In this document: piece after piece, positions 37,067 through 54,036 of the stretch
How the letters are laid out: each line of letters begins with the position of its first letter
Position numbering within the stretch: position 1 is the first letter of the stretch
Assembly: GCA_017544805.1 (NCBI GenBank)
Contig: JAFYDK010000089.1
Span: 62,001-126,000 of the forward strand
Origin: Bacteroidales bacterium
GTDB taxonomy: Bacteria > Bacteroidota > Bacteroidia > Bacteroidales > UBA3824
Direction: 5' to 3'
DNA length: 64,000 nt
Translations under genes and position numbers: made by a program
The notes under the pieces: model-generated
Seen by the model: only the letters and a program-made list of their open reading frames with translations
What the model was told of the DNA's origin: nothing
Database searches by the model: none

Positions 37067-37762
37067 TTAAAAAGATAATCGTATTCCGCTTTTGTACATC
37101 ATAAAAACAAGACCGGATATTGTCAGCAGCGACATAAAGAACAAAATCCAAACCATTGCTTTGATGGATTTCAAACTTTTGCCGTTGCTTTGGGTTTGTT
37201 TCAACGCTTTGTCCTGCGTTATCAAATTGCTGAGTTTTTCGATTTCAGCATTATTTTTGTCTTGTTTTTGACTAATCTCTTTGACCTCTGACGACATTTT
37301 GTCAAGACGGGCGGGAAAATCTATACCCGAAATTTTGTCTTTCAGTTCGGTTGTGCTTTGTGCTAATTCCAAATAAGAATTTAATAAACTATCCGTTTTT
37401 TCAGTCTGTTTAAGATAAACGGATTTTACTAATTCTATTTTGCTTAACGCCTCTTGAGCGTTGTTTTTTAAGAGATTAGCCTGTTCCGAGAGTTTTTCCT
37501 CCGATGCTTTAGCGAGTTTGTTGATGGTATTTCCCATCTCGTCTTGTTTTTTCTCGGATTTCTCGTTAATCTGCTGAATATACTGCTGATATATATTCGT
37601 CAGTTTTTCCATATTTTTGGAAAATTCCTGATGAATGTTTTTCGCCTCTTTGATTACGCTGTCAGAAGCCGTTCCCGCTTGCGAAATCATTTCTGCGGCA
37701 GACTGCAAATTTTCAAGGTCTTTCTGTAATTGCAGTAACTCTTTGTCAATCAATTCTCTCAT
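37067..37762 (-). CDS. Coiled-coil protein with C-terminal membrane anchor, partner of the large helicase
   Basis: 231 residues, no recognised domain. Residues about 5-190 are almost wholly helical heptad sequence rich in Lys/Glu/Gln/Ser, with no signal peptide; one transmembrane helix at about 203-222 is followed by a short basic tail. A tail-anchored cytoplasmic rod is therefore predicted. It starts 15 bp after the stop of the RecQ-like helicase gene and must be in the same operon. A membrane partner for a nucleic-acid helicase is unusual outside anti-phage systems; the function is not known. Confidence 0.8.
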   Translation of the reverse strand: MRELIDKELLQLQKDLENLQSAAEMISQAGTASDSVIKEAKNIHQEFSKNMEKLTNIYQQYIQQINEKSEKKQDEMGNTINKLAKASEEKLSEQANLLKNNAQEALSKIELVKSVYLKQTEKTDSLLNSYLELAQSTTELKDKISGIDFPARLDKMSSEVKEISQKQDKNNAEIEKLSNLITQDKALKQTQSNGKSLKSIKAMVWILFFMSLLTISGLVFMMYKSGIRLSF

Positions 37763-37777
37763 ATCAGTTGTATTTTT

Positions 37778-40700
37778 TTATTTTCTTTCGTTAATTTTTA
37801 AAACTTCGGAATTAAACCGTTTCAACCAGTTGTGCTGAATTTTCATCAGCAGTACGGCTTGAGATTCTTCTTTTAAATCGTAATTTTCACTCGCAATCTT
37901 TTCCGTAATGCTGTCAAGATTGTTGATGAAATTTTCCTCCGATTCGTTTTCTCTTATTTGTGTCAAACCTTCACTTATCGACTGATAAGCCTCAAAACGG
38001 TTTTCATAATCGCTGTTTGCGCCCGTGAAAAGTTTGCAATAGCCGTACATTATTTTGTCAGCCGGTTTTGAATTTGCTTTTTGGTTTTCGCTGACGGATT
38101 CTCTAAGGCTTGTCAGCTCGTTTAAATTGCTTCCCGCCTTGTCTATAAGATACAAAACTCCGTCTACTTTATCGGCATTTTCGGGAATTTCGTCGCAGAC
38201 GAAACCACATTTATAACGCGATATGAAATAGTTTTGAAGGTTTTTCATAATTTCTTCCTGCGTTAAAGTGCCGTCTTTTTGTTTTTCCAAAACGGTGCGG
38301 AAAAATTTCCCCGAATCTTTTGCCGCTCTTTCGTAAAGCGGATAAATTTCCGTGTAGAAAAAATCTATCAGCGTGTCGGTGTATTTTTCAAGACTTAAAA
38401 ATTTCTCTTCCTCGATCCCGGAAAAATACAAAAGCATTTTTTCTCTTGTTAAATTTCTTTGCAAAACGGGCATGAGTTTCATTTTGTAGAAATCTTTGTT
38501 ATGTTTTGTAACATAAACCTCAATTTCTTCTTTTGCCGGATTAATCAAATAATCGTCAATCAAATCTATTTCTTTGAGTCTTGAAATTGCTCTCAAGGTA
38601 TCGGCCTTGTTTCTGAATTTGTTGTATAATTCTATGAATGCAAAGCGTTTTCCCTCGCCGAGATTTTTAATTCTTATTTCATAATCCTTTGCTAAAACTT
38701 TTTCAAACTCGTCATAATTGAAAGTCTTTGAATAGCAACGTCTTAAAATCGTAGCCGAGGTATTAGTTCCGAGTATTGAATTTAACATTTGAGCACCTTC
38801 GCGGAAAATGTCATTATAAAAAGGTATGGTTATTTTTGCCTTTTGACCTTCCATAACGGCGTCCAAAGCTGTTTGGATACCGTCGTTTTCTTCCGCAGAC
38901 TGTTCGGTTTCCATAACAGAAAGGTACGCAAGAGGATTGTCGGTAGAATTGTTAATCAAATCCAAAATAAAAGTTTGAACTTTTTCCGATATTTCCTTAT
39001 CGTACTGCATTTCAGGCATATTCAAAGAGTTGTCCTTGAAATTGATGAAGCCTAAACTTTTAGTTTTTTGTTGCGTATAAATGTACAAACTATTCGGATT
39101 GTATGCCGGTTCGGTTTCTGTTTGGATTTCAAATCCGAATTCGTTAAAAACAGCGTCAGTAACTATCTGTCTTAAAGAATATTGCGGAAATGAAACTCCG
39201 TTTAAAATTTCTTTAAGAATAGTTTTTTCTTTTTCCGGGCCGGGGTTTTGATTAAGAAGGTTTTGAAGATTAGCTGCCGTATCAAAATCCGTAGCCGTGA
39301 TGTTTTCTGCTGTTGTGAGTTTTCCGTTATTGTCCCTGATAGATTCAAAACCGGCAAAATCTTTTTCCGAAATGTTAAGCATAAGATTTACTTTAATTTC
39401 GGAATTCAAACTGCCTCTGCCATTCATTCTGCAAAAACTTTCAAGAGAAAGCGGCGGTTCAAAATAGATAATGTCAGTTAAATCCTTGATTCTTATTCCC
39501 GTTCCTATGGAGCGAGAGGCTGCAAGGATTTTTGAGGCTCCGTCTTTGAAATTCTTGAACGCTCTACGTCCCTCAAGCGCTTGAGAACTCGTGATTTGAC
39601 GGTCTAATTCTACAATGTCGCCTTCGTAATAATCGGAGTTGAAACCGCCGATTTGATGGTTTTCATTTTTGTCGAATGGACATTGCAAGGAGTAAATCAG
39701 TGCTTTTAAATTTTGATTTTTTGACTGCATCAAAATTTTTTCCGCCTGAACTTGTTTCAGTTTTTTTGCGTATGCCTGCAAATCGTCAGTGTTGCCGGCA
39801 CCTCTCATCTGAATTTCGTGAACTGACAAGTCGATTTTTCCGATATTTTCTGCATTAACTCTCTCAATACAATCAATCTGAAGTTTTTGAACTATTTCGT
39901 TTTGAATGTTTTTTTCGGGCGTTGAAGTAAATGCACCGATTCTGAGTGTATTGATGTTTTCGTCGGAAAAATTCTTCGCTATTATGTTTTTAATATCCTG
40001 ATAATAAGGCCTGAAATCCGATGTTTGAAGCGAGATTCTCTGCGCCTCGTCAAGCATTATGTAGTATATCGGAATTGCCTTAGAATCAATCTGTTTAAAG
40101 ATTTTTCTGATATACGGGTCGTGAATCAGCGAGGGCGAAAAAAACGTTATCAGGCTTCTGCCTTGCGTTACGCTGCGGGCTGCTAAATCTCTGTCCAAAG
40201 AGTTTTGGAGAGCCGGATTCAGATAATAATCGATGTCGATTTTTCTGTCCCTGAGCATATCGAATTGCATATCCATAACGGCAATCGTCGGCGACAAAAC
40301 AAAACTGTAACCCGGTTTCATTAGACACGCAAAAAGCGAAATTAATGTTTTGCCTGTACCCGGGGGCGAGATGTGCAGAAGATTGTTTCCGTTGAGAAGT
40401 TCACTGATGCTTTTTGCCTGACCTTTAAGAAAATCGTTTTTGGCGAAAAGGTTTTTTAAGAAAAATTTCAAAGCATCTTCCTGCTCGTTGAAATTCTCCT
40501 CGTTGTCATCCTCCTCCTCTTGTGGAAGCGTTAAATCTATATCGTAATGAATATAATTTGCCTTTAAAAGTTTCGTTTGAACCGATGGCGATTTTGCCGA
40601 ACGGATAACGGCATATTTTTTTGACTTCGTTTTTGGAATTTCATTGTTGAACGAAAATCTGCTTAAAACCGAAATGTCAATTAACAAATCGTATTCTTTG

Positions 40701-41860
40701 TTTTCATCAAATTCAGAAATATCCTCACGGCTGCCTTGATACAAGAGATTTAATTCCGTTTCTGCAAATTCTTGAGTATGAAAGATTTCGAGTTTAACGT
40801 TAGGAAATTTTCTGGCGCAGTTTTCGAGCGTGAAAAACTTGTTGAAATGCTGTTTCAAATCTTCTAATGCCAAGAAAGCACACGGAACGTCTCTTTCGAT
40901 GACGCCGATTTTCCAAGTTTTGGCGGTGAGCGAAAGTGCGCCCGAATTAACGGCCTCAAGAATTACTTTTTGAATTCTTGCTATTGCAAGCGGTGTTAAT
41001 GCTATCTGCAAGGCTTCAATACCGTCTTCCGAATTGAAAAGCGGAGAATTATAATTATCTCTTACAATATCGAAATACGGATTTTGCGTGAAGTAATTCA
41101 ACTCGTCTGTTTTATGCGACAAAATGTCTGATTTCTTGATAATTACCCTGCCCGTGATGTTAATTTTGTTGAGCAGTGAAGAAATCATATTTTCTCTAAT
41201 CCAGTCCGTTGTATCAACGAGCGAGTCATCAAGATTGAAACCGTAAGTGATGCAATCAGCGGTATTTTCGCTGTATGGTGCGCTGAAAGTTAAATCGCAT
41301 TTTTCATTCAAAAAATCATATTCGGGATTTGCTTTCAAGACTTTTAAATTGCGTCGGAATTTTTTTGAATATTTGAAAATATTGTCAAAATTTCTGTCAA
41401 TTTCTGCTAATTGCCAAATATAATCGCCTTGAGAGAAAACAGCTCCGTATGTTATGTAATCGTAAATGAATTGCAGTCTTGGGTCCTCAGAGGTTGATTT
41501 TTCGGCTTTTTGCCTTGGTTCTATAACGTGTAAGGCTCTGAAAACCAAGTCTTGTACTTCACGTTTGGGAATTTCTCTAAAAATAGTTCCGTCTTTGGAA
41601 ATTCTTTTGAGAGTTTTGCCGATTGTAGTTGAAAGAATATCTTCGATAAATTGCGAGGGATAAGTCGGCGTACCTCTTGAGACTATATTATATAATAGTG
41701 CGGTTGCCGCATCGGAACATTCGTCTTTGACTTCGATGTTGCTCTCCAAATCGAAATAGGAGAGTTGTTCCATCAGAAGTTTTACTTTTTTCTCGATAGA
41801 AGCATTACTCCTGAGAGATTCCATTGCGTTTGTGAAATATCCGGCTTTCAGTTGTATCAT
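37778..41860 (-). CDS. Very large RecQ-like superfamily 2 helicase (DEAQ box)
   Basis: 1360 residues. The helicase core is about residues 475-830: Walker A S-P-P-G-T-G-K-T (about 496-503), motif Ia V-L-S-P-T-I-A-V-M-D-M-Q, Walker B L-D-E-A-Q (about 603) followed by R-I-S-L-Q-T-S-D-F-R-P-Y-Y, which mirrors the RecQ D-E-A-H-C-I-S-x-W-G-H-D-F-R-P-x-Y block, motif III A-F-T-S-T, and C-terminal R-S-I-G-T-G-I-R and E-S-F-C-R-M-N-G-R-G-S (about 813, motif VI-like). There is no RecQ zinc-binding or HRDC domain. The 470-residue N-terminal and 530-residue C-terminal regions match nothing I recognise. Operon with the membrane coiled-coil gene. A -7 box TAAATTTG (41886-41893, minus) lies 26 bases upstream. 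Possible roles: DNA repair or phage defence; neither is proven. Confidence 0.85.
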   Translation of the reverse strand: MIQLKAGYFTNAMESLRSNASIEKKVKLLMEQLSYFDLESNIEVKDECSDAATALLYNIVSRGTPTYPSQFIEDILSTTIGKTLKRISKDGTIFREIPKREVQDLVFRALHVIEPRQKAEKSTSEDPRLQFIYDYITYGAVFSQGDYIWQLAEIDRNFDNIFKYSKKFRRNLKVLKANPEYDFLNEKCDLTFSAPYSENTADCITYGFNLDDSLVDTTDWIRENMISSLLNKINITGRVIIKKSDILSHKTDELNYFTQNPYFDIVRDNYNSPLFNSEDGIEALQIALTPLAIARIQKVILEAVNSGALSLTAKTWKIGVIERDVPCAFLALEDLKQHFNKFFTLENCARKFPNVKLEIFHTQEFAETELNLLYQGSREDISEFDENKEYDLLIDISVLSRFSFNNEIPKTKSKKYAVIRSAKSPSVQTKLLKANYIHYDIDLTLPQEEEDDNEENFNEQEDALKFFLKNLFAKNDFLKGQAKSISELLNGNNLLHISPPGTGKTLISLFACLMKPGYSFVLSPTIAVMDMQFDMLRDRKIDIDYYLNPALQNSLDRDLAARSVTQGRSLITFFSPSLIHDPYIRKIFKQIDSKAIPIYYIMLDEAQRISLQTSDFRPYYQDIKNIIAKNFSDENINTLRIGAFTSTPEKNIQNEIVQKLQIDCIERVNAENIGKIDLSVHEIQMRGAGNTDDLQAYAKKLKQVQAEKILMQSKNQNLKALIYSLQCPFDKNENHQIGGFNSDYYEGDIVELDRQITSSQALEGRRAFKNFKDGASKILAASRSIGTGIRIKDLTDIIYFEPPLSLESFCRMNGRGSLNSEIKVNLMLNISEKDFAGFESIRDNNGKLTTAENITATDFDTAANLQNLLNQNPGPEKEKTILKEILNGVSFPQYSLRQIVTDAVFNEFGFEIQTETEPAYNPNSLYIYTQQKTKSLGFINFKDNSLNMPEMQYDKEISEKVQTFILDLINNSTDNPLAYLSVMETEQSAEENDGIQTALDAVMEGQKAKITIPFYNDIFREGAQMLNSILGTNTSATILRRCYSKTFNYDEFEKVLAKDYEIRIKNLGEGKRFAFIELYNKFRNKADTLRAISRLKEIDLIDDYLINPAKEEIEVYVTKHNKDFYKMKLMPVLQRNLTREKMLLYFSGIEEEKFLSLEKYTDTLIDFFYTEIYPLYERAAKDSGKFFRTVLEKQKDGTLTQEEIMKNLQNYFISRYKCGFVCDEIPENADKVDGVLYLIDKAGSNLNELTSLRESVSENQKANSKPADKIMYGYCKLFTGANSDYENRFEAYQSISEGLTQIRENESEENFINNLDSITEKIASENYDLKEESQAVLLMKIQHNWLKRFNSEVLKINERK

Positions 41861-42092: not shown

Positions 42093-42233
42093 ATGAATGC
42101 AGCTATTTTATTCTTTGTATTGCTTGCTATTGTTGTGATGGCAGTTTTTAACGGTATTACTAAATTCAATGAATTTAAAAACCGTAAAAATAGTTTTACT
42201 ATTGAAGGTGAAAGTTTGGTATTTCGTGATTAA
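42093..42233 (+). CDS. 46-residue membrane peptide, faintly LemA N-terminus-like
   Basis: Short frame of 46 codons flanked by a consensus promoter and a terminator, so the unit is expressed. Residues 3-19 are a hydrophobic helix (I-L-F-F-V-L-L-A-I-V-V-M-A-V-F), followed by N-G-I-T-K-F-N-E-F-K-N-R-K-N, which resembles the segment after the membrane helix of LemA proteins (Y-N-x-L-V-x-L-R-N-x-V). LemA is normally about 190 residues, so this would be only its anchor, a truncated derivative or a chance likeness. It lies between the helicase operon and the zinc-ribbon operon, on the opposite strand to both. A small membrane toxin or a regulatory RNA are other readings. Confidence 0.55.
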   Translation: MNAAILFFVLLAIVVMAVFNGITKFNEFKNRKNSFTIEGESLVFRD

Positions 42234-42239
42234 TAATTA

Positions 42240-42538
42240 GTTATGTGAATATTAGTTGCGGATATATTGGATAAACAAGTCTTCGAACATATATTTTGAT
42301 TTTTAACACCGGCATTTTAATAAGAGGGATAGTGCCGGTGTTTTTTTATGTCTTTTAGTTTTTTTAAGTGTTTTACTTAAAAATTTATTTCTTGAAGTTT
42401 TTGGTATCCCGTTATAGTTATAAAAAAGAATATTTATACAAAATATATTTATAAAAATGTATTTTTATGCAATTTTTTGTGTAAGAGTATTCCGTAAAAA
42501 TATTGATATTGTATACAGGAATTACGTATATTGTATTG
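42240..42538. other. Gene-free AT-rich gap after the small transcription unit
   Basis: After the 46-codon ORF the sequence holds its terminator (42305-42342) and then about 200 very AT-rich bases up to the stop of the next minus-strand gene. I see no further reading frame, RNA structure or promoter match in it. Confidence 0.6.
42305..42342 (+). terminator. Terminator of the small transcription unit
   Basis: A 10-bp perfect stem AACACCGGCA/TGCCGGTGTT (42305-42314 with 42333-42342), 18-base loop and a T7 run right after. With the promoter at 42008 it defines a transcript of about 300 bases. Confidence 0.88.
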
Positions 42539-42793
42539 TTAAAAATTTGCTGACATTTTTTCTAAAATATCCACTGCAAAGGTAATATCGGCTTCAAAAG
42601 TAGAGTGGGAGAGTAGAAAATCCTTTCTGCCTTGAGAGATTTTGTTGTAAAGGTCTTTTGACATTGTTTCGACGTATGATGAAATAGCGTATTCAATGTC
42701 ATCTTTTTGCCAATCCATTTTGGAGTGGATATAAACGTTACGTTTTTGATGAAAAAAGCTATATGCCGTTTCTATGCTGTCTTTTGTTATCAT
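42539..42793 (-). CDS. Small conserved-looking hypothetical protein, last gene of four-gene operon
   Basis: 84 residues from ATG 42793, 17 bases after the stop of the zinc-ribbon gene; ATGs further upstream overlap that gene. It is soluble and helical, with a compact motif set H-Q-K-x-N-V-Y, D-W-Q-K-D-D-I-E-Y-A-I and S-x-Y-V-E-x-M that looks like a conserved domain rather than random coding. I recall similar small hypothetical proteins in Bacteroidota but cannot name a family. No catalytic motif is visible. Confidence 0.75.
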   Translation of the reverse strand: MITKDSIETAYSFFHQKRNVYIHSKMDWQKDDIEYAISSYVETMSKDLYNKISQGRKDFLLSHSTFEADITFAVDILEKMSANF

Positions 42794-42810
42794 CTGAAAA
42801 AATATTGATT

Positions 42811-43818
42811 TTAAACGAGATACCATTCCTGAAGATAGTTTTGACGGGTGCCGCAACTCGGACATTCAGTAAGAAAAGCATCTATTGAAGTACCGCAGTT
42901 TTTGCATTTTAGGGCAACTCCGCCCGCATTTTCCAAGGAATATTCTCTTTTGACATGTTTTAGTTTGAGTTTCAAATCGTTTTGGCGGCTTTTGATTTTG
43001 CCGGCATTGATGAAAACTTCACGTACCAAAACTTCTATATTAATAATTTTTTCTCCGTTGATTTCCTCTTTGGAAATCGTGGTGTAATCCACGAAATCAA
43101 AATCCAAAACGTTTTTCGTTTTTTCGCCTTCAAAATAATACTTTTGCAATTCGTAATTGAGATTGTTGAAAAAAGTATTTTTATTGATTTGAGCCGAGTT
43201 TTCCGCCCAAAATTTTTCTTGAGCGGCATTGATTTTTTCTTTGTAAATTTTTATCGGCAGGAGTATAAAAAACGAATCCAAATAATAAAAAACGTAGTAA
43301 AACGCCAAAGTTAAAAGTGCTGTCCCTATCAAAACTTTAGAAAAATCCCAACCGTTGAAAGTTCGTCCTGTGGTTTTGATGTAGATGTAACTTATTATGA
43401 AACTGATAATTATATCAATTATCAACGTGATTTTTTTGTAAGTTCCCGAGTGCATTACAAGGTCGGTGTGATATTTTGCTCCAAGATTTTTTGACTCGTA
43501 GTCCATGTTATAAGCAGTTCCGCAATAAGGGCATTCTCCGCTTTGAGAATCAATGTCAGCACCGCAATTTGGGCAACTTTTTCTCTTTGCGGGATTTATG
43601 AAAGTGTATTTGATTCTCGGGTCGAAATTGAAAAGTTTGAAAACTGAATTTCCGCCGCGCAAATAGTTTTTTTCAAGCCGTATGCCGTTTTCAATATCTT
43701 CGTTAAGCGTTGATTCTGAAGACTTTTCGATAATTTTATCACCGCTTTTGTATTTTGTGACAAGACTCAGACCAAAATCTTTGAGTCTTTTGGCATATTT
43801 TTTATCGGATAACTGCAT
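42811..43818 (-). CDS. Double zinc-ribbon membrane protein with TIM44-like domain
   Basis: 335 residues. First zinc ribbon C82-x2-C85-x10-C96-x2-C99, then two hydrophobic helices (about 129-149 and 162-187), a soluble region with the feel of a TIM44-like domain (about 195-295, starting F-W-A-E-N-S-A-Q), and a second zinc ribbon C305-x2-C308-x10-C319-x2-C322 close to the C-terminus. The N-terminal 80 residues form a separate, unrecognised module. TIM44-like domains bind membranes or partner proteins. It starts 15 bp after the preceding gene stops, so it is part of a tight operon. Confidence 0.8.
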   Translation of the reverse strand: MQLSDKKYAKRLKDFGLSLVTKYKSGDKIIEKSSESTLNEDIENGIRLEKNYLRGGNSVFKLFNFDPRIKYTFINPAKRKSCPNCGADIDSQSGECPYCGTAYNMDYESKNLGAKYHTDLVMHSGTYKKITLIIDIIISFIISYIYIKTTGRTFNGWDFSKVLIGTALLTLAFYYVFYYLDSFFILLPIKIYKEKINAAQEKFWAENSAQINKNTFFNNLNYELQKYYFEGEKTKNVLDFDFVDYTTISKEEINGEKIINIEVLVREVFINAGKIKSRQNDLKLKLKHVKREYSLENAGGVALKCKNCGTSIDAFLTECPSCGTRQNYLQEWYLV

Positions 43819-43833
43819 TTTTGTTGTTTTTTA

Positions 43834-44811
43834 TTAAACATCTTTTATTTCAAGTGTTACAACTGTTTGATTTACAAGTTGATAACAGATTTCACCGTTG
43901 GTTATTGGTGCGTAAATATTTCCGCATTGCTTGCCTTCGAGTTTAGCATAATAATATAGTAAAATGCAAATAGAAGCGCATACGGGATTAACATTGTTTT
44001 TTACGGCGAATTTTTGAAAATCACTTTCGAGGTTTTCGATTGATTTTGCAAAGCGGTATTTCACGTCTTTGAAAACGGGAGCAACCAAGTTTACTTGATT
44101 AGTGCTTAGGCTTTCAATGCTGACATTTATCATCGCAGAATTATAATTAGCAACAATCGGTAATGTTGTGTCAATGTGTTTTTTGCGGATATATTCGGCA
44201 AAGTTTTGTTTTTCTTTGTTGATTAAAACGTCTTTAGCATTGAACCCGTCTTCAAGAAATATGATTTCATCGCCGTTGCCTTGCGTGTAAAGATTTATTA
44301 AATCCATTTCGGCATATTTGTTTTTTGGCAGTTTTACGTGCATTGCCACGGCATTTGTTGTTGAGCCGGAATCGCCTGTTTTAAAGAATGTTTTGCCGGA
44401 TTTGTTGTCTTGAGGGAAACTATAACAAGAAACCCAACCCATTAACGGTCTTGTTGCAAAATTCTCATAATCAGGAGCATGAACGGCAAATTCCGTATGA
44501 ACATTGCTGTATGGTGGAATTATTAAAACTGTAAAACCGTTATCAAAACCATCTTTATAAATATTTTTGATAGTATCTTCTGTATAGACTTTTATTGATA
44601 TTTCTTCTTGAAAATCAGTAATATCGTTTACGAAGATTTTATCTTGACAGACTTGACCACCGTCAATATCCATAAAATATGGTGAAGTTCCAGCAATCCA
44701 TTCTCCTTGTGGAAGTTTAGATAATAAATCCTCGTTTCCGGCGAGTAAAAGTTTTCTGCCGGAAAGAATCAATTGAGCCGTTTCTTGTGGTGTTTTAAGG
44801 TATTTTTCCAT
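43834..44811 (-). CDS. Uncharacterised 325-residue protein of a widespread DUF family
   Basis: 325 residues, soluble, no signal peptide. Motifs: G-R-K-L-L-L-A-G-N-E near residue 18, G-E-W-I-A-G-T-S-P-Y-F-M (35-46), H-A-P-D-Y-E-N-F-A-T-R-P-L-M-G-W about 111, and a C-terminal N-G-E-I-C-Y-Q-L-V-N-Q-T. From memory, proteobacterial proteins with the same motifs (G-N-W-I-G-G-T-I-P-Y-F-M and G-E-I-A-Y-Q-L-L-N-Q-T) form a family of unknown function (I believe DUF6976); this was not checked. The C-terminal end recalls FIST-type sensory proteins. Second gene of the four-gene operon, 12 bp after the first. Confidence 0.8.
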   Translation of the reverse strand: MEKYLKTPQETAQLILSGRKLLLAGNEDLLSKLPQGEWIAGTSPYFMDIDGGQVCQDKIFVNDITDFQEEISIKVYTEDTIKNIYKDGFDNGFTVLIIPPYSNVHTEFAVHAPDYENFATRPLMGWVSCYSFPQDNKSGKTFFKTGDSGSTTNAVAMHVKLPKNKYAEMDLINLYTQGNGDEIIFLEDGFNAKDVLINKEKQNFAEYIRKKHIDTTLPIVANYNSAMINVSIESLSTNQVNLVAPVFKDVKYRFAKSIENLESDFQKFAVKNNVNPVCASICILLYYYAKLEGKQCGNIYAPITNGEICYQLVNQTVVTLEIKDV

Positions 44812-45247: not shown

Positions 45248-47572
45248 CTAATTACTCCAATCGCTGCCATTGAAATCTGTACTCAAATCTTTGCCGGCTA
45301 TACCGTCGCATACTCCCTTGTAGGCAGGTTTGCGGGTGTAATCAGCGTTAAAAAGATTTGGTTTGTCGCCTTTGAGCCAATATTCATGTTCGTCGTCGGC
45401 ATCTGTGAGTGTCCAAATGCAAATACCACCTTGTTGTGAAGCAGGGACTATGGCTTTGTATTGTTCAATCACAAATTTATACGTATCCGCCTGTGCTTGA
45501 AGCTGTTCTGCAGATGGATTTACTTTTGTTTCATCATCATGTGTATAAGAGAATGCTACGTCCAACTCGCTGATACGTACAAGTTTACCCGTTGAGGCAA
45601 GTTTTGTAAACATATTTTTTATGCCTTCTTTAGCAGCATCATTTTTGGTGTCGTCGGGGTTGAAACTCATGATATGCATTTGAGTACCGATACCGTCAAC
45701 AATGGCACTACCGTTTGTCTCGTCGATATATTTTACGTAATTGATAAGAGCCTCAAGTTTAGAATCAGAGCTTTCAAGATTGTAATCGTTGATATAAAGC
45801 ACGGCTTCTGGGTCGGCTTTGCGAGCAAATTGGAAAGCTTTTACAGCGTAATCCTTGCCGAGGAAGTAGCCCCAGTAGAAATGGTCGGATGCCCAGTTGA
45901 GGTTCAAGCCGTCGGTTTCAGATTCTGTGGGCTGTCCGTCGTCTGACATAAAACCACCGTCAACGCCACGTATTTTGCTATCGTCGCCAATTGCCTCGTT
46001 AAGAACGTCCCATTCGGTTACATTGCCTTTCTCCTTGCAGTGTGATACCATATCGGTAATCCATGTTTCCATCGCGGTAAGGAGGGCGGTTTGCTTTTCG
46101 TCGAGAGTTTTAAAAGTATATACAACTGTTGATGCTTTAGACAAAGCACGTTTAGAACTTGCCTCTTTTTCATAGATAACAAAATCATCAAAATATAAAG
46201 TTGCTTCTGCACCTCCAAATTGAAATCCAAGTTTTTGAATTAAATTATTTGTTTCAGAAAAATTTATTTCTGTTTCATATTGCATCCAAGAGGTTGTTAA
46301 ATTATACTCTTTTCCATAATATTGGTCACAAGCATCATAAGGGTCGCCTTGACCACAAATTTGTATTTTGCAGGCATCGTCGGTTTTTGCCCAAAAAGAA
46401 CAAACATAAGTCTTAGTTTCATCAAAAATATTAGCAAATTTATAAAACATTTGAGATTTCCAATTAGCGTTGCTTAAAGAAGAAACCTCTATTTTCATAA
46501 CTTTACCACGATCTGCATCTAAATCTTCGACAATCGAACCTGTATGGTACGAACCGTTTTGTGCCCAACCTGTTTCTGTATCAAACGATGGGTTTAAGCA
46601 AAGATTGGTTGGTCCAGATTTTTCTTTACCAAATTTAAATCCATCAATATACAACACTGTTTCTTCTCCTCCAAACTGAAATCCCATTTTAACAATTTGG
46701 TCATTGTCTGCTCCCAAGGTTACAGTACCTTCGTATTTCATCCACGAATTTGTAAGTGTATACGTACTACCATAATATTGGGAACACGCATTATACGGAT
46801 TTCCTTGTCCACATAACTGAATTTTACAATTTCCATCAGTTTTTGCCCAAAACTCGTATTTATATTCCTCTCCTACTTCTAATATTGAAGAAAAAGTATA
46901 AAATACCTGGGATTTCCAATTATCATCGCTTAAAGATGATACTTCAAGTTTCATTACTTTACCACGATCTGCATCTGAATCTTCGACAATCGAACCTGTA
47001 TGATATGAACCGTTTTGCGCCCAACCTGTTTCTGTATCGAAATCCGAATTAGTACAAAGATTTTCAATACCGCTATCATCACCATCTGCAATTACCTTAA
47101 CATCTGGAGATATCAAACTCTTCAAATATGTTTGCGGCTGCTGGGTGTGCCATAGCAAGTTGTGACCAAAGATTTTAACATCGGGATTCAACTCTTTGGC
47201 TTTGTCGATGAAATTGTCGATTTTGGTGAAATCCAATTTACCGTTTGACTTGCATACCGAACCAAATTTCATGGCGTTGCCGGTGACAAACTGCTGAAAA
47301 TTGTTGGCGGCAACTTTTTGATATTGTTCATCTTCAAGAAACTTATCGGCGCCAAGCCCAAGTCCGATTGTTACTCCGGGCATATATTCCGCCATATATT
47401 CTTTGATGAACTTATAATTTGCCATTGACTCATCGGTGGAAAGCGGAATTTCATCTATGGATGATATTGGCGTATGACCTTCTGGCGTGTGCCAATCCAT
47501 TTTGTCGTCGTCGCAAGATGCGAAAAGTAATGCTCCACATACTGCAACAGGTAATATTCTATTTATTTTCAT
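45248..47572 (-). CDS. GH10 endo-beta-1,4-xylanase lipoprotein split by two CBM-like modules
   Basis: 774 residues; lipobox F-A-S-C with Cys20. The GH10 barrel starts at about residue 45 (N-terminal part with F-G-H-N-L-L-W-H-T-Q-Q-P at 135-146), is interrupted by two tandem carbohydrate-binding modules (about 168-318 and 321-470, CBM4/22-like jelly rolls) and resumes at about 485. Acid/base E526 in V-L-N-E-A; nucleophile E669 in I-S-E-L-D. The same interrupted layout is known in Prevotella and Bacteroides xylanases. It cuts the xylan backbone at the cell surface for import by the adjoining SusC/SusD. The two modules share about 90 bases of near-identical DNA (46493-46583 and 46953-47043), so the duplication or conversion is recent. 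Confidence 0.95.
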   Translation of the reverse strand: MKINRILPVAVCGALLFASCDDDKMDWHTPEGHTPISSIDEIPLSTDESMANYKFIKEYMAEYMPGVTIGLGLGADKFLEDEQYQKVAANNFQQFVTGNAMKFGSVCKSNGKLDFTKIDNFIDKAKELNPDVKIFGHNLLWHTQQPQTYLKSLISPDVKVIADGDDSGIENLCTNSDFDTETGWAQNGSYHTGSIVEDSDADRGKVMKLEVSSLSDDNWKSQVFYTFSSILEVGEEYKYEFWAKTDGNCKIQLCGQGNPYNACSQYYGSTYTLTNSWMKYEGTVTLGADNDQIVKMGFQFGGEETVLYIDGFKFGKEKSGPTNLCLNPSFDTETGWAQNGSYHTGSIVEDLDADRGKVMKIEVSSLSNANWKSQMFYKFANIFDETKTYVCSFWAKTDDACKIQICGQGDPYDACDQYYGKEYNLTTSWMQYETEINFSETNNLIQKLGFQFGGAEATLYFDDFVIYEKEASSKRALSKASTVVYTFKTLDEKQTALLTAMETWITDMVSHCKEKGNVTEWDVLNEAIGDDSKIRGVDGGFMSDDGQPTESETDGLNLNWASDHFYWGYFLGKDYAVKAFQFARKADPEAVLYINDYNLESSDSKLEALINYVKYIDETNGSAIVDGIGTQMHIMSFNPDDTKNDAAKEGIKNMFTKLASTGKLVRISELDVAFSYTHDDETKVNPSAEQLQAQADTYKFVIEQYKAIVPASQQGGICIWTLTDADDEHEYWLKGDKPNLFNADYTRKPAYKGVCDGIAGKDLSTDFNGSDWSN

Positions 47573-47599
47573 TTTTAAAAATTCGTTTTTATAGGTTAT

Positions 47600-47629
47600 T
47601 GAAGAGACGCACCTCGATACGTCTCTTCA
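47600..47629 (-). other. Intergenic hairpin between the glycan-binding and GH10 genes
   Basis: 10-bp perfect stem TGAAGAGACG/CGTCTCTTCA (47600-47609 with 47620-47629) and 10-base loop, 28 bases upstream of the GH10 ATG. No U run, so more likely an mRNA processing or stability element than a terminator. Confidence 0.65.
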
Positions 47630-47638
47630 TAAACATTA

Positions 47639-49051
47639 TTAAAAATCAGAAACAGTTGTAGATTTAATGTTTACAAAACGGAAATTGTCAACATAAATCA
47701 ACTGCTTACATACGTCGGCTTTATAAACTAAGTCGTCAGAAATTTTAACATCCGTATTGACGAAACCCATGCCGATATTAGGATATTTGAGCGCGGCGTG
47801 GTCTTCCACGAACTCGCTAAACAAAGGAGTATTCTTGGCCTCAATTTCAAATTTGTATTTTGAAAATTCCGAAAGTGGAATTGTCACAGTCTGCCATCCA
47901 TCGGTTTTAAAAGCAGTTGTTGTGCCATCTGAATTGAGCCAAGGAACATACGCATAAACCATCGCAGATTTGCTTTTTAGTTCGTCGCTTCCATAGCCAC
48001 TAAAATTGTAGTTATTACCAAGAACAATCTCGATTTGACCCGTTAAATTCCATTCTTCAGGAACGTAAATGTCGAATTGGAAACCGACTTCTGACAGCGG
48101 TGTGCTTATACCATCAGTCCAGTTTTCTGCCACCCAATCGAGTGTACGGTATTTTTCATTGCCGTCGCCTGCTGTCCAAACTTCACTAGCGCGAGATTTG
48201 CCGCCTGCTATTTGTCCATCTGCATCAATAAGGCGTTGTGGTATTATTTGACACACTTTGCCATAGATTCCAAGCGGGTCGTCCACAAGGTCTTCGTCGT
48301 TAATCATGCTACCAGTTTCGCTCCACGACCAAAAACCATGATCGCCATTGCCATCAAAATTGAGCAACATTCCGTGAGTGTCGTTGAAATATGCGCCCGA
48401 AATTGCTTGACCATTTGCACCTATTATTGTGATAGTTCCGCTTTCGGTAACACCCTCTGGCATTACGAATGTAAACCACTCGCCCGATTCGTCTTCGGGT
48501 GCATTCACAATGTTTTCGGTAACGGAAATGTCGCCGGGCAATATCACTTCTGAAACTTCTTCAAGATTAACGCCCGAAACTTTCACCGTTTCGCCAATCT
48601 TAGGTATTGACGGTGAAATTGAAGTAATTTTGGGCGATGCAGCTCGTATTACAAAATCGTAAGAATACGTTCCACTGCTTTTAACAAACTGAATTTTGTT
48701 TCTAACACTTTCGTCGGCATCAGCAACTGGTGTTGTACCCGAAAGAGAGAAAATAATGTTGTTGTCGGTAACGAGTGCAGAGTTGAAAAAAGTTTCGTAG
48801 CCGTTGACGAGCAGTTTTAATGTGCCGCCGAATCCCGAACCGTCAAGCCTTAATGTTTGTCCCAAACGTGCAAATTCTACTTCACGTTCTTTGTGTCCCG
48901 TAGTATCATCTATGTTGAGCAGATATACTTTATTTACGGTAACAGGACCGCTGCCCTCGGGATATGAACTGCCGTCTTCGTCTTTGCAGGACGAATATCC
49001 CAAAATCAAAGTCGAGACCGCTGTCGTATATAATATTTTTTTTATGTTCAT
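47639..49051 (-). CDS. Surface glycan-binding lipoprotein (SGBP-B type, IPT/TIG domains)
   Basis: 470 residues. Lipoprotein signal ending Y-S-S-C (Cys22). Two Ig-like IPT/TIG modules (about 38-130 and 135-225; S-P-K-I-T-S-I-S-P-S type strands), then a C-terminal glycan-binding domain (about 226-470) with aromatic residues (D-H-G-F-W-S-W-S, W-V-A-E-N-W) of the kind that stack on sugars. It resembles the SGBP-B proteins of xyloglucan and xylan loci. Non-catalytic; it helps capture xylan before GH10 cleavage. It lies between SusD and GH10, the standard position. Confidence 0.85.
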   Translation of the reverse strand: MNIKKILYTTAVSTLILGYSSCKDEDGSSYPEGSGPVTVNKVYLLNIDDTTGHKEREVEFARLGQTLRLDGSGFGGTLKLLVNGYETFFNSALVTDNNIIFSLSGTTPVADADESVRNKIQFVKSSGTYSYDFVIRAASPKITSISPSIPKIGETVKVSGVNLEEVSEVILPGDISVTENIVNAPEDESGEWFTFVMPEGVTESGTITIIGANGQAISGAYFNDTHGMLLNFDGNGDHGFWSWSETGSMINDEDLVDDPLGIYGKVCQIIPQRLIDADGQIAGGKSRASEVWTAGDGNEKYRTLDWVAENWTDGISTPLSEVGFQFDIYVPEEWNLTGQIEIVLGNNYNFSGYGSDELKSKSAMVYAYVPWLNSDGTTTAFKTDGWQTVTIPLSEFSKYKFEIEAKNTPLFSEFVEDHAALKYPNIGMGFVNTDVKISDDLVYKADVCKQLIYVDNFRFVNIKSTTVSDF

Positions 49052-49076
49052 AATAATTTTTCAGATTTGTTTTTTA

Positions 49077-50819
49077 TTAATTAAAAAGCGTTGATTCGTC
49101 TGTTTCCCGTTCAGCAAAAGTCCATGCACGCGAGGGTTCGTTGAGTGCAGGGTTTTTGGCCGTTTCCGTGTCAGGATAACGGAGCAATAATCTGCTTGCA
49201 TCGGCAGGAAATACGCCGTTGCCTTTATCAGAATTAGGTTCGTATGCTTCCTTATTAGTATCGTATTTGTATCTGCGATTTCTATCCTGAGAGTTGAGAT
49301 AATTTACAACCTCTTGCTGTTGATAGTATGCACGGCGTACAAGAAAATACCAATACAAACCTTCAAAAGCGGTTTCAAGGCGGTATTCATGGCGGAGTTT
49401 CTCGTATGTAATTTTATCAACGGGGTTGAGCCCTGCACGTAAGCGTATTTTGTTGAAATATTCCAATGCCGTAGCATCCGTAGTGGAAGTTTCGTTGCCC
49501 ATGGCAGCGTCTGCATAGTTGAGATAAACTTCGGCGAGCCGCATCATGTGCGTATTGATACCTGAGGATTGCATGTAACTTACACCGTTATCTTCGTGAG
49601 TGCCTACAACATATTTTTTGATGTTGGCACCGTCGGTGGAGGCACTTTCGGTAACGCCGTAAATGTAGCCGCCGTTTTTAACGTTAAATTCGGGATATTC
49701 GTTGCCATATTCGGCAATACATTCTCTCATGCGGAGATCTTTGCCTGCCTCGCCGGGGAAAAGCGTTGCAAAATTAAATGTTCCGTCTTCTGTATCAAGA
49801 CGGTGAAACTCTGCATACAAATCCCATGAAACGCAGGTTGCAGTGCCCCAACCGCCTTGGTCGGTAACCATTGTACTCCAACCGAAAAACTGTGTGATGT
49901 CTTGATTGCAACCCCAACCGATAGAGGCCGTAGAACCCTCAATCCATTGAAGTTGGAAAATATCCTCAGCGCAGTTGTTGTTTTCGATTTTGAAAAGGTC
50001 TGCATAATTGTCCATCAAACTGTATGAGGATTTGTCGATAACATATTGAGCAGCCTTTTTTGCGAGGTCGAGGTAATATGTATTGCGCATACCGTCGTTA
50101 AAATCGGTTTTAACATTAGAGCCGTTGTACTGTCCGTCTGTCGTAATGCCTGCCATAGAAAGATAAACTCTCGAAAGCATTGCCGCAGCAGAATATTTGT
50201 TTACTCTGCCTACTGCCGAAGATTTTTCGGGCAGGTTTTTAACACCGAATTCAAGGTCGCGGATTGCAAATTCAAATACATCGGCACGGTTGTGCGGTGC
50301 AACAACGTAAGAATTAACAAGTGCGCCGGTGTTTTCGTACAAAACGACATTACCCCAAAGAGATGCTAAATACCAATATGCAGTGCCCCGCATAAAACGG
50401 GCTTCGGCTATCGCTTCGTTTTTGGCGTCCTCACTTATTCCCGTGGCATATTCTTCGATGTTGTTGATAACATTATTTGATTGTGCCACAACGGAATACA
50501 AAGCCGACCAACCTTCGTAAAGACCTTCGGTAGTACCGCCGTCGTTAAAATTGGTGAAAAATTTAATATAATCACTCCATTGAGCGGTAATGTTGTTGGA
50601 TCTGCCGTCGCCCATTGAGTAATAAAGTTTTCCGTTGAAGGAGTTCCACACATAATTATAAAGTGTGGCAGTTGCCTTTGATAATGCCTCGTCGCTGTCG
50701 AAGAACGTTACAACATTGGTGCTTGAAGTATTTTCCTGATCAAGAAAATCGTCAGAACAACCTGATAATGTGAGCATACCCGCCGCTATGAGACTTAGAT
50801 ATTTTATTATGTTTTTCAT
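49077..50819 (-). CDS. SusD/RagB-family lipoprotein of the xylan locus
   Basis: 580 residues from ATG 50819 (seven codons inside a longer frame), giving lipobox L-S-G-C with Cys21 followed by S-D-D-F-L-D-Q. SusD hallmarks: A-R-F-M-R-G-T-A-Y-W-Y-L-A near residue 140, N-Y-A-D-A-A and R-A-G-L-N-P in the C-terminal half, and an end rich in acidic residues. It pairs with the upstream SusC (28 bp between the genes) and binds xylan oligosaccharides, as judged by the GH10 in the operon. Confidence 0.94.
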   Translation of the reverse strand: MKNIIKYLSLIAAGMLTLSGCSDDFLDQENTSSTNVVTFFDSDEALSKATATLYNYVWNSFNGKLYYSMGDGRSNNITAQWSDYIKFFTNFNDGGTTEGLYEGWSALYSVVAQSNNVINNIEEYATGISEDAKNEAIAEARFMRGTAYWYLASLWGNVVLYENTGALVNSYVVAPHNRADVFEFAIRDLEFGVKNLPEKSSAVGRVNKYSAAAMLSRVYLSMAGITTDGQYNGSNVKTDFNDGMRNTYYLDLAKKAAQYVIDKSSYSLMDNYADLFKIENNNCAEDIFQLQWIEGSTASIGWGCNQDITQFFGWSTMVTDQGGWGTATCVSWDLYAEFHRLDTEDGTFNFATLFPGEAGKDLRMRECIAEYGNEYPEFNVKNGGYIYGVTESASTDGANIKKYVVGTHEDNGVSYMQSSGINTHMMRLAEVYLNYADAAMGNETSTTDATALEYFNKIRLRAGLNPVDKITYEKLRHEYRLETAFEGLYWYFLVRRAYYQQQEVVNYLNSQDRNRRYKYDTNKEAYEPNSDKGNGVFPADASRLLLRYPDTETAKNPALNEPSRAWTFAERETDESTLFN

Positions 50820-50847
50820 AATTATTTTCAATTTTTTCAATTTTTAA

Positions 50848-53800
50848 TTAAAACTGAACGTTTACACCGAATGTAACAATTCTCGGAGACGGATAACGTC
50901 CGTAATCGAGACCGTTTAAGAGTGCGTTACCGTACATACAGCCGACTTCCGGGTCGTAACTAGAATATTTTGTCCAAGTGTACACGTTTTGAAGATTGGC
51001 ATAAACTCTGACGTTTTCGAGTTTAACTTTCTTAACCCATTCTTTTTTGAGAGTGTAACCCAAAGCGATATTTTGCAAACGGATATATGAACCGTCTTCT
51101 ACATAGCGGTCGCTTTGACGGTTGTTGTCGTTGACTGCGGAACTTGTCAAAAGCGGATATTTAGAATCCGTATTTACAACTCTTACGTTTCGATAATCGT
51201 TTGATGGCAAATTCGGGTCGATAACCTCTAATCTTGCGTAATTGTTGGCATCGGTGAGCAGATTTCCGTTTTCACGGACATTTTTTAGATAGTAGTTGTT
51301 GAGGTTGAAGACATCGTTACCATAACTTCCATTGAAATAAATGGTTAAGTCAAAACCTTTGTAGGAGAAAGTATTACCAAAACCGAATGTAAAATCAGGA
51401 TTAGGATCTCCAATTACAGTTTGGTCTTGATCATCGATAACGCCATCTTCGTTGATGTCCTCAAAAATATAATCACCAATGAAAACACCTTTTTCGCCGA
51501 TTGCTGCACCTTTTGGGATTGCTACTTGCTTGATATTGCCCTCGGCATCACGATAATAAAAATCTTCTGCTTTGTCGAATCTGCCGATTACTTTGTAACC
51601 GTAGAATTGTCCTACTGGCGCACCTACAACGGATTTGGTAATTGTCCAAGTGCCTGAGCCGAATGAAAACTGACCGGGAACCATTCCTGATTCGGAATCA
51701 AGTTCTACGATTTTGTTTTTGTTGTGGGAAAATACTACGCTGGTTCTCCATTGAAAACCTTTTTTGTCGATGTTAATTGTATTGAGAGTAAATTCTACGC
51801 CTTTGTTTTCCATTGAGCCGATGTTAGCCCACGGTTTTGAAGCCGCTCCGTTACCTTCCGTTCCGAGCATTGCGGGAAGCGCAATTTCGAGCAAAAGGTC
51901 TTTGGTCTTTTTGTAGTAATAGTCGAAAATAAATTCGATTCTGTTGTTGAAGAAATTCAAGTCTAAACCGGCATTAACCGAATTTGTAGTTTCCCATTTA
52001 AGTTCGGGATTGGCAGTGTTGGAAGACAAAACGCCAGTTCCCCACGGTGTGGATTTTGAAGCCAAAAGCGAAATATATTGCCAATCGCTGACATTTTGGT
52101 TACCCGTAGAACCCCAGCCGAGACGGATTTTCATATTATTCATCTTTATGCTTTCAGCAAAGGATTTGATAAATTCTTCGCCCGTAACCTTCCATGCCAA
52201 CGCTGCCGAGGGAAACCAACCCCAACGGTTGTCTTCGTAAAATTTAGAAGAGCCGTCGCGGCGGAGAGTGAAGGTGAGCATATATTTTTCGTCAAACGAA
52301 TAAAAAAGTCTGCCGAAATATGAGAATAATGAAGTGTTGTTTTGCGAACCCGTTCCCGTGGAAGCGGCTCTGTCGCCTGCGCTCGGATCGTGTACGCTGT
52401 TGCTTGTAAAACCGCTTGCATTAGAGGCCTGACTCTCCCAGTGCGAATGGCTCATTTCTTGCCCTAACATTGCATTAAGGCGGTGTTTTTCTTGAAGCGT
52501 TACGCTGTAATTCAAGATGTTACGCCAACTCCAATAAGAAGTTGTGGTGTTAGTCCAAGTGCCTTCTCTTTCGTCGCGGTTGAGATAATCGCTAAAATAA
52601 TAATCGGGCTTATAAAGATAAAATTTGTTGGTATTGTAGTCGGCTGAAAGTTCGGTTTTGAAAGTAATGCCGTTCCAAATATTGAAATCCAAAGCCTCGT
52701 TGATACGGAAATTAAGTTTTTTGTTGTAATTTTCGTTGAGGTTGGCAAGTGCGATAGGATTTGGGGGCATATATCGACCTTGACCGTCGCTGTTGTCGGC
52801 TGCGCCGTAACTGCCGTCAGCGTTTGAAACGGGAGAACTCGGCTGCGACCTTATGGTGCTTAATATAATGCTGTTGTCTGATCCTACTTCTTGCTTTGAA
52901 TCAGTAAGTGAGAATGACAGAGAATTTTTTACCCATTTTTTAACTTGACTGTCCATATTGCCGCGGAGTGTCAAGCGGCGGAAACCCGAACCTACGGCGA
53001 TACCGTCTTGATTCATATAACCTGCACCCATGGCGTAAGTATTTTTTTCGTTACCGCCCGTAACGGAGAGGTTGTGGCTTTGCATAAATGCGCTGTTGTC
53101 GAAAAGTGCCTCTTGCCAATCAGTTCCTTCGCCCAATGCGCTAACATTGATGAATTGGTTTGAACCGCTTCTGACACCTGCTTCCGCTCTTGCATTGTGA
53201 ATAGTGGCATATTGCTGCAAATTCATCATATCGAGCTTTTGGGCCATTTGTTGCCAACCTACATAGCCGTCGTAGGTGATTGTAGCCTCGCCCGATTTGC
53301 CGCGTTTGGTGGTAATCATAATAACACCGTTGGATGCTCTTGCACCGTAAATAGCCGTTGCCGATGCATCTTTGAGCACGTCCATAGATACGATGTCAGA
53401 AGGGTTGATTGAGGCAAGCGGGTTGTTGGACGATGTCGGGTCGCTCGCATCTGCTCCAGCCGGATCAACAACAACACCGTCGATTACGAAAATCGGTTGG
53501 TTGGTGGCATTAAGAGAGTTAGTACCGCGGATACGGATACTTGTAGAAGCACCCGGCGTACCAGAGTTGGCAGAAATCTGCACACCAGCGGCACGTCCCT
53601 GAAGCACTTGGTCTACACTTGTGGGAACACTTCTACCAATTGCTTTTTCGTCTACCGAGACTACCGAACCTGTCAAGTCGGAACGTTTCATCGTGCCGTA
53701 ACCCACCACGACTACTTCTTCCAAAGCCTTGGTGTCTTCTTCCATGACGACTTTTACGTCAATCATATTCCCTGAAACGGGAATTTCGTTGGTAATATAA

Positions 53801-54036
53801 CCGATAAAAGTAAAATTTAAAATGCTTTTGTCGGTGACGGAAATAGAAAAATTACCGTCGATGTCAGAAATAGTACCGTTTGTAGTACCTTTTTCAATAA
53901 TGCTGACTCCTGGCAGTGGTGAACCTGCCATATCCGTAACCGAACCAGATACGGATACTTTTTGCGCCGCGGCTATAATCGGCACATAAAGAAAGAGTAG
54001 CATGAACACAATTTTGACAAATTGTTGCTTTTTCAT
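50848..54036 (-). CDS. SusC/RagA-family TonB-dependent transporter of the xylan locus
   Basis: 1062 residues. Signal peptide 1-24 (A-A-A-Q), CarboxypepD-regulatory-like domain (about 27-110, V-S-G-S-V-T-D-M-A-G-S), TonB box-like E-E-V-V-V-V-G-Y-G-T, plug domain with A-S-A-T-A-I-Y-G-A-R-A-S-N-G-V, 22-strand barrel ending V-N-V-Q-F. It is about 50 residues longer than the SusC at 10-13 kb. First gene of the xylan operon. Its regulatory region carries three TGTAACA-type boxes and a -7 element. Confidence 0.96.
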   Translation of the reverse strand: MKKQQFVKIVFMLLFLYVPIIAAAQKVSVSGSVTDMAGSPLPGVSIIEKGTTNGTISDIDGNFSISVTDKSILNFTFIGYITNEIPVSGNMIDVKVVMEEDTKALEEVVVVGYGTMKRSDLTGSVVSVDEKAIGRSVPTSVDQVLQGRAAGVQISANSGTPGASTSIRIRGTNSLNATNQPIFVIDGVVVDPAGADASDPTSSNNPLASINPSDIVSMDVLKDASATAIYGARASNGVIMITTKRGKSGEATITYDGYVGWQQMAQKLDMMNLQQYATIHNARAEAGVRSGSNQFINVSALGEGTDWQEALFDNSAFMQSHNLSVTGGNEKNTYAMGAGYMNQDGIAVGSGFRRLTLRGNMDSQVKKWVKNSLSFSLTDSKQEVGSDNSIILSTIRSQPSSPVSNADGSYGAADNSDGQGRYMPPNPIALANLNENYNKKLNFRINEALDFNIWNGITFKTELSADYNTNKFYLYKPDYYFSDYLNRDEREGTWTNTTTSYWSWRNILNYSVTLQEKHRLNAMLGQEMSHSHWESQASNASGFTSNSVHDPSAGDRAASTGTGSQNNTSLFSYFGRLFYSFDEKYMLTFTLRRDGSSKFYEDNRWGWFPSAALAWKVTGEEFIKSFAESIKMNNMKIRLGWGSTGNQNVSDWQYISLLASKSTPWGTGVLSSNTANPELKWETTNSVNAGLDLNFFNNRIEFIFDYYYKKTKDLLLEIALPAMLGTEGNGAASKPWANIGSMENKGVEFTLNTINIDKKGFQWRTSVVFSHNKNKIVELDSESGMVPGQFSFGSGTWTITKSVVGAPVGQFYGYKVIGRFDKAEDFYYRDAEGNIKQVAIPKGAAIGEKGVFIGDYIFEDINEDGVIDDQDQTVIGDPNPDFTFGFGNTFSYKGFDLTIYFNGSYGNDVFNLNNYYLKNVRENGNLLTDANNYARLEVIDPNLPSNDYRNVRVVNTDSKYPLLTSSAVNDNNRQSDRYVEDGSYIRLQNIALGYTLKKEWVKKVKLENVRVYANLQNVYTWTKYSSYDPEVGCMYGNALLNGLDYGRYPSPRIVTFGVNVQF

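Follow-up and report, generated by a model that had tools for sequence, protein, structure and literature searches.

The window analysed here is a stretch of 64,000 nucleotides from a 3.05 Mb Bacteroidales metagenome-assembled genome (MAG) of a rumen bacterium, whose named relatives include goat, sheep and deer MAGs. It contains two adjacent open reading frames on the reverse strand, the first encoding a RecQ-like protein of 1,360 aa and the second, starting 15 bp further on, a protein of 231 aa (Table 1), both exactly where an earlier sequence-only reading of this DNA had placed them. A second, independent MAG (G016) has this pair too, in matching surroundings and at 97% identity.

Upstream of the giant gene lies a divergent 46-aa open reading frame (42093-42233, +) whose product is hydrophobic near its N-terminus; a GC-rich hairpin (42306-42341) and a run of T come after it. 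This arrangement is conserved in G016. An uncharacterised gene group at 42539-44811 (-), also upstream and on the same strand as the giant gene, encodes a DUF6976 protein (3e-112), then a zinc-ribbon protein with hydrophobic segments, then the product of a small open reading frame. The region at 45248-54036 (-), as read from its open reading frames, looks like a xylan utilisation locus with a GH10-like xylanase carrying tandem carbohydrate-binding modules, followed by SusD/SusC-sized genes.

Table 1. Features of the gene pair, with positions in the window
Feature	Position	Strand	Basis
Giant protein (1360 aa), related to RecQ-like helicases, nuclease degenerate	37778..41860	-	ORF, Pfam, motif alignment
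N-terminal region, residues 1-184, family-specific	41309..41860	-	Profile A1 matches this family only; no PDB sequence match
Degenerate DUF559/Vsr-like PD-(D/E)XK region, residues 185-245	41126..41308	-	Alignment to intact DUF559 of distant members
Conserved block, residues 246-345, best-kept part of disarmed clade	40826..41125	-	Mean identity 43% versus helicase 22%
IERDVPC signature, residues 321-327	40880..40900	-	Motif alignment
RecQ-like helicase core, residues 461-830	39371..40480	-	Pfam, NCBIfam, fold match
Walker A PGTGKT, kept	40346..40363	-	Motif alignment
Walker B DEAQ, kept	40040..40051	-	Motif alignment
Motif III FTSTP (canonical LTATA lost)	39917..39931	-	Motif alignment
Motif VI RMNGRGS (canonical QEAGRAGR; Q and second R lost)	39410..39430	-	Motif alignment
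C-terminal region, residues 831-1360, mostly helical	37781..39370	-	No credible PDB profile match; model
Partner, 231 aa, tail-anchored helical rod	37067..37762	-	ORF, hydrophobicity, helical periodicity
Partner-family signature FPARLD	37301..37318	-	In 29/49 partners, strict pattern
C-terminal transmembrane segment of partner, residues 204-222	37097..37153	-	Hydrophobic stretch

The giant protein and its anchored partner

Pfam matches in the giant protein were limited to DEAD (residues 480-653, 3e-12) and Helicase_C (739-815, 4e-7), with neither an RQC nor an HRDC domain, and the NCBIfam RecQ model TIGR01389 matched residues 467-818 only, scoring 87.4 bits against a cut-off of 640.2. PADLOC models of DpdF (8e-23) and PsyrT (9e-20) likewise matched the core only. 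About 465 residues before the core and about 540 after it lie outside the Pfam and NCBIfam matches. These data bear out the sequence-only reading, which had described a RecQ-like protein devoid of RecQ accessory domains, with about 1,000 residues of unfamiliar sequence and with core motifs mirroring RecQ; both of these motifs, DEAQRIS and DFRPYY, are present. The RecQ motifs I and II are represented by GTGKT and DEAQ, while motif III reads FTSTP and motif VI RMNGRGS, which do not correspond to the RecQ TAT and the QxxGRxGR arginine finger.

Two features had escaped the earlier reading, namely the degeneration of helicase motifs III and VI and the presence of a remnant nuclease domain preceding the helicase. 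The nuclease of distant members aligns as VDFALE...LEVDGPHH...D..R, and the window protein reads CDLTFSAPYSENTADCITYGFNLDDSLVD at this place, so that the first D is kept and the E-x-D-G and H are lost.

The N-terminal profile A1 matches the window protein at E 3.5e-188, the window protein itself being part of A1. The sequence-only reading had suggested profile and structure searches of both termini. Structure prediction supported the RecQ-like core alone and shed no light on the two ends, and neither end gave a credible match when searched as a profile against the PDB. No C-terminal phosphoribosyltransferase (PRTase) was recognised by Pfam. The AlphaFold models of residues 1-465 and 458-1360 were of poor quality, with a mean pLDDT of 45 and 48, respectively; the likely cause is that no more than nine close sequences were usable. 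Neither model lends structural support to DNA binding. Fold matches of the N-terminal part, including phosphoribosyltransferases and methyltransferases, had E values above 0.02 and were rejected.

The partner has a single hydrophobic stretch close to its C-terminus, consistent with the membrane anchor assigned to it earlier. An anchored rod is encoded directly downstream of the giant gene in all 49 loci with an untruncated partner, that is, loci with a relative of the N-terminal region in which the contig end does not cut the partner off. This pairing spans Bacteroidales to Rhodothermota and includes plasmids of Salinibacter, Haliscomenobacter, Rhodothermus and E. coli. The two-gene unit described in the sequence-only reading is upheld, and is much more widespread than the window alone could show. 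Without their last 30 residues, the partners show a 100-degree hydrophobic periodicity with a power of 1.54 versus 0.31 (s.d. 0.02) in shuffled sequences, and a proline content of 0.6%, as would be expected for long amphipathic helices. ZorA matches of the partner reflected weak coiled-coil similarity (E 0.18 or worse). The window partner has one short anchor and no effector domain recognisable by Pfam. The proposal that it is a membrane effector found no support, because in the intact relatives the nuclease lies in the giant protein. The partner looks more like a tether, and its constant pairing with the giant gene suggests that the rod may hold the giant protein at the membrane.

Intact and disarmed members of the family

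The family alignment comprises 53 members, of which 20 have canonical helicase motifs (PTGGGKS, DEAH, TATA, GMGI and QEAGRAGRD, or near variants) and 33 are disarmed. In distant members a DUF559-type nuclease is located between the N-terminal region and the helicase. Its E-x-D-G signature is absent from all 33 disarmed members; the script pattern matched 20/20 intact ones, convincingly in 19, since L125 passes it by chance (KLEVNEI). Walker A and the DE of Walker B are each present in 20/20 intact versus 21/33 disarmed members, motif III in 20/20 versus 4/33, and the RxGR of motif VI in 20/20 versus 6/33. The loss of helicase motifs is graded among the disarmed members, all of which are Bacteroidales: the four scored motifs are all missing from six of these members and all present in G033 and G100, so the motor is not useless throughout the clade. 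Within the window genus, motif III and RxGR are missing from all 15 members, and Walker A and DE are retained in all 15, so that ATPase activity may remain.

The window protein, without ExDG, motif III and RxGR, falls outside the intact class, which is defined by D...ExDG together with canonical helicase motifs. Its match to the N-terminal profile A1 and the tail-anchored helical partner directly downstream place it in the same unnamed module. On a tree constructed with the nuclease and helicase columns left out, the 33 disarmed members form one clade (SH-aLRT 95; 85/91 without long branches), and each helicase motif underwent at least four to six changes on the tree. Some genomes contain both kinds of copy, as in G001 (intact L046 on C37, disarmed L048) and G279 (intact L108 on C143, disarmed L099); in most genomes with a disarmed copy the searches found no intact one.

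Distribution, selection and genomic context

In the window genus the pair is present in 17 of 18 genomes, and the lone genome without it is 64% complete. The tally for the order is 29 of 295 genomes and 19 of 183 genera, and in three other carrier families all complete and clean genomes have the pair (3/3, 1/1 and 2/2). Conservation as a core gene of the order, which according to the sequence-only reading would speak against a defence role, was therefore seen at the level of the genus only. The phylum sample yielded 9 carriers among 394 other genomes, all with the intact class, and the intact form occurs in 7 of 5,426 E. coli genomes, on plasmids and chromosomes. No relatives of the family were found on viral contigs. 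In the gene tree, members cluster by family and genus, as expected of vertical descent. The genes flanking the pair in the genus (zinc ribbon, SecDF, thioredoxin reductase) are present in most or all members but spread over other contigs, which fits general rearrangement and movement of the pair equally well.

For the helicase, mean pairwise identity is 49.7% in the intact class versus 22.1% among disarmed representatives, and for the nuclease 41.1% versus 22.2%. This relation is reversed in the block of residues 246-345 (32.4% versus 43.1%), and the IERDVPC signature is retained in nearly all disarmed members. For closely related pairs in the window genus, whole-gene dN/dS is 0.04-0.13, and it is low in each domain, the degenerate nuclease region included, as well as in the partner. 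The giant protein is thus still under constraint, but what is being preserved is not a nuclease any more and probably not an ordinary helicase.

As the sequence-only reading had stated, no recognised defence genes flank the pair: the ten flanking proteins gave no convincing match to PADLOC models, the sole matches being between Cas3-type models and the HD domain of a 7TM-HD protein. These ten include no dpd gene products, and no DprA-like neighbour was found at the window. Judged by reading their sequences, many neighbours in the window genus look like housekeeping proteins (Nif3-like, SecDF, alanyl-tRNA synthetase, thioredoxin reductase). A single subclade (G003, G005, G006, G013, G015 and G017) has the pair directly downstream of the bona fide recQ gene.

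Among the intact relatives, L125 adjoins Azaca (ZacB, ZacC) and BREX (BrxC) genes, L126 adjoins a type I specificity subunit and a DrmD-like helicase, the Salinibacter member lies beside type I restriction genes, and the E. coli PSS-10 copy lies within a type I restriction island that also contains insertion sequences. Neighbours matched 266 PADLOC models for the intact class (137 proteins) versus 41 for the disarmed one (134 proteins), these being counts of models and not of proteins; some large neighbours, among them several housekeeping-like ones of the disarmed set, were omitted. The co-occurrence with defence genes in islands that was to be checked is therefore observed for the intact relatives, together with a patchy distribution, and not at the window, whose clade is core-like.

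Interpretation and relation to known systems

The earlier proposal of a defence system is upheld as regards origin by the intact relatives, and weakened for the window itself by the near-universal presence in the genus, the tree following the lineages, the lack of defence neighbours, and the loss of the nuclease signature and two helicase motifs. It is plausible that the intact class, rare and found on plasmids and in defence islands, is a defence system. A defence role is right for the likely ancestry of the window pair, and possible but less likely for its present function. In this lineage the cutting site is lost and the motor damaged, yet both genes are intact and under strong selection, a combination that hints at the repurposing of a former anti-phage machine.

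The best explanation, on which our confidence is evenly balanced, is that the intact form of the module is a nuclease-helicase tethered to the membrane, and that the window pair is a member of the module which has been domesticated and enzymatically disarmed. In the intact form, the long amphipathic rod encoded by the small gene would sit in the inner membrane via its C-terminal anchor and hold the giant protein there, where the DUF559-like PD-(D/E)XK nuclease and the RecQ-like motor would meet and degrade incoming DNA. In the Bacteroidales clade, the nuclease signature was lost once, near the base, and the motor was eroded repeatedly afterwards. The window genus has kept the ATP-binding motifs and lost the coupling residues (motif III, plus the Q and the second R in motif VI), so that the window protein most likely acts as a switch that binds ATP and DNA but neither unwinds nor cuts. 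The parts most closely guarded by selection are the anchored partner, the N-terminal region and the block around IERDVPC, and the present form, a core trait of these lineages, may be a membrane-bound scaffold for DNA or protein. More tentatively, a captured mobile defence module may have lost its nuclease and then its motor, becoming a vertically inherited non-enzymatic membrane-DNA scaffold, for example a nucleoid or replication tether.

A continuing anti-phage function, in line with the sequence-only reading, in which the giant protein would be an ATP-dependent sensor of foreign or damaged DNA, the membrane partner or a recruited factor the effector, and the nuclease dispensable, seems rather unlikely. 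It accords with the defence islands occupied by intact relatives, the Walker A and B motifs retained across the window genus and a membrane partner that is never lost, but not with the near-universal and apparently vertical inheritance in the genus, the paucity of defence models among neighbours, or the single short anchor of a partner devoid of a recognisable effector domain; moreover, some relatives have lost Walker A and B entirely, leaving no sensor motor. The coexistence of intact and disarmed copies in G001 and G279 would suit a decoy or immunity role, in which the disarmed copy would bind the partner of mobile intact copies, or their DNA targets, and so protect the cell against these copies or against their regulation. 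This is improbable, as no intact copy was found in most genomes with a disarmed one, and the disarmed copy always comes with its own partner.

That the giant protein is a functional RecQ-type helicase for repair, with additional domains, is highly doubtful: a separate RecQ gene is located on the same contig (G000:C57:27537), RQC and HRDC are missing, and motifs III and VI are degenerate in 15/15 genus members, against which stand Walker A, DEAQ and the RecQ-like fold matches. Hardly any credence can be given to a decaying pseudogene pair, which the loss of catalytic motifs in many relatives might suggest, since the purifying selection evident from dN/dS contradicts it, the frames are full-length and the partner is kept.

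These data extend the list of likely defence systems by an architecture in which two genes encode a membrane-anchored nuclease-helicase, and document a clade in which both enzymes are disarmed yet the pair is strongly selected as a core trait. The domestication of immune machinery into cell biology thereby becomes directly testable in bacteria. The data also caution that a helicase label alone does not mean a working motor. If the module was indeed captured as outlined above, bacteria would offer an example of a cellular pseudoenzyme derived from a defence machine.

In the open-access literature no account was found of the pair, of a DUF559 and RecQ combination, or of RecQ with a tail-anchored or membrane defence partner. 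Housekeeping RecQ helicases share the core, and differ from the window protein in the accessory domains and in motifs III and VI. The RecQ-like core is also common to DpdF of the Dpd 7-deazaguanine DNA modification and restriction system (PADLOC PDLC02868/02864/02861). PDLC02868 matches the nuclease and helicase of intact L033 and L046 at 1e-112 and 1e-106, so PADLOC may label such loci DpdF, whereas the DpdF model NF041063 gives the window protein 19.9 bits against a cut-off of 550; the label looks like a lumping of a broader helicase class. In PsyrTA/RqlHI, RqlH is a protein of about 690 aa with a C-terminal PRTase, encoded in a two-gene operon with the DprA-like RqlI (PMC4670107). The likeness lies in the RecQ-like helicase and in the DprA/ShosA gene upstream of the E. 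coli plasmid homologue; the window lacks both a DprA neighbour and a PRTase match. ShosTA (DprA-like ShosA, PRTase ShosT) is fused or adjacent in the E. coli family member and absent at the window. The E. coli form (L033:5161-11284 and L127:11075-17162) consists of a DprA/ShosA gene, a 1,558-aa fusion of HAD, PRTase-like (ShosT), DUF559 and RecQ-like domains, and a 162-aa tail-anchored protein annotated merely as hypothetical.

Hachiman couples a helicase to a nuclease (PMC12278908), and the intact form is alike in functional outline. HamA and HamB are separate proteins, and Hachiman is not known to have a tail-anchored partner. Zorya combines the ZorAB membrane motor with the nuclease-helicase ZorD, a similar idea of a membrane-associated nuclease-helicase, and differs in its ZorA and ZorB motor genes, which are absent here. 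The defence library detects only the nuclease-helicase part of the module, as DpdF or PsyrT. Judged by sequence, the window pair is related to the RecQ, DpdF and PsyrT/RqlH helicases but fails the tests that define each of them.
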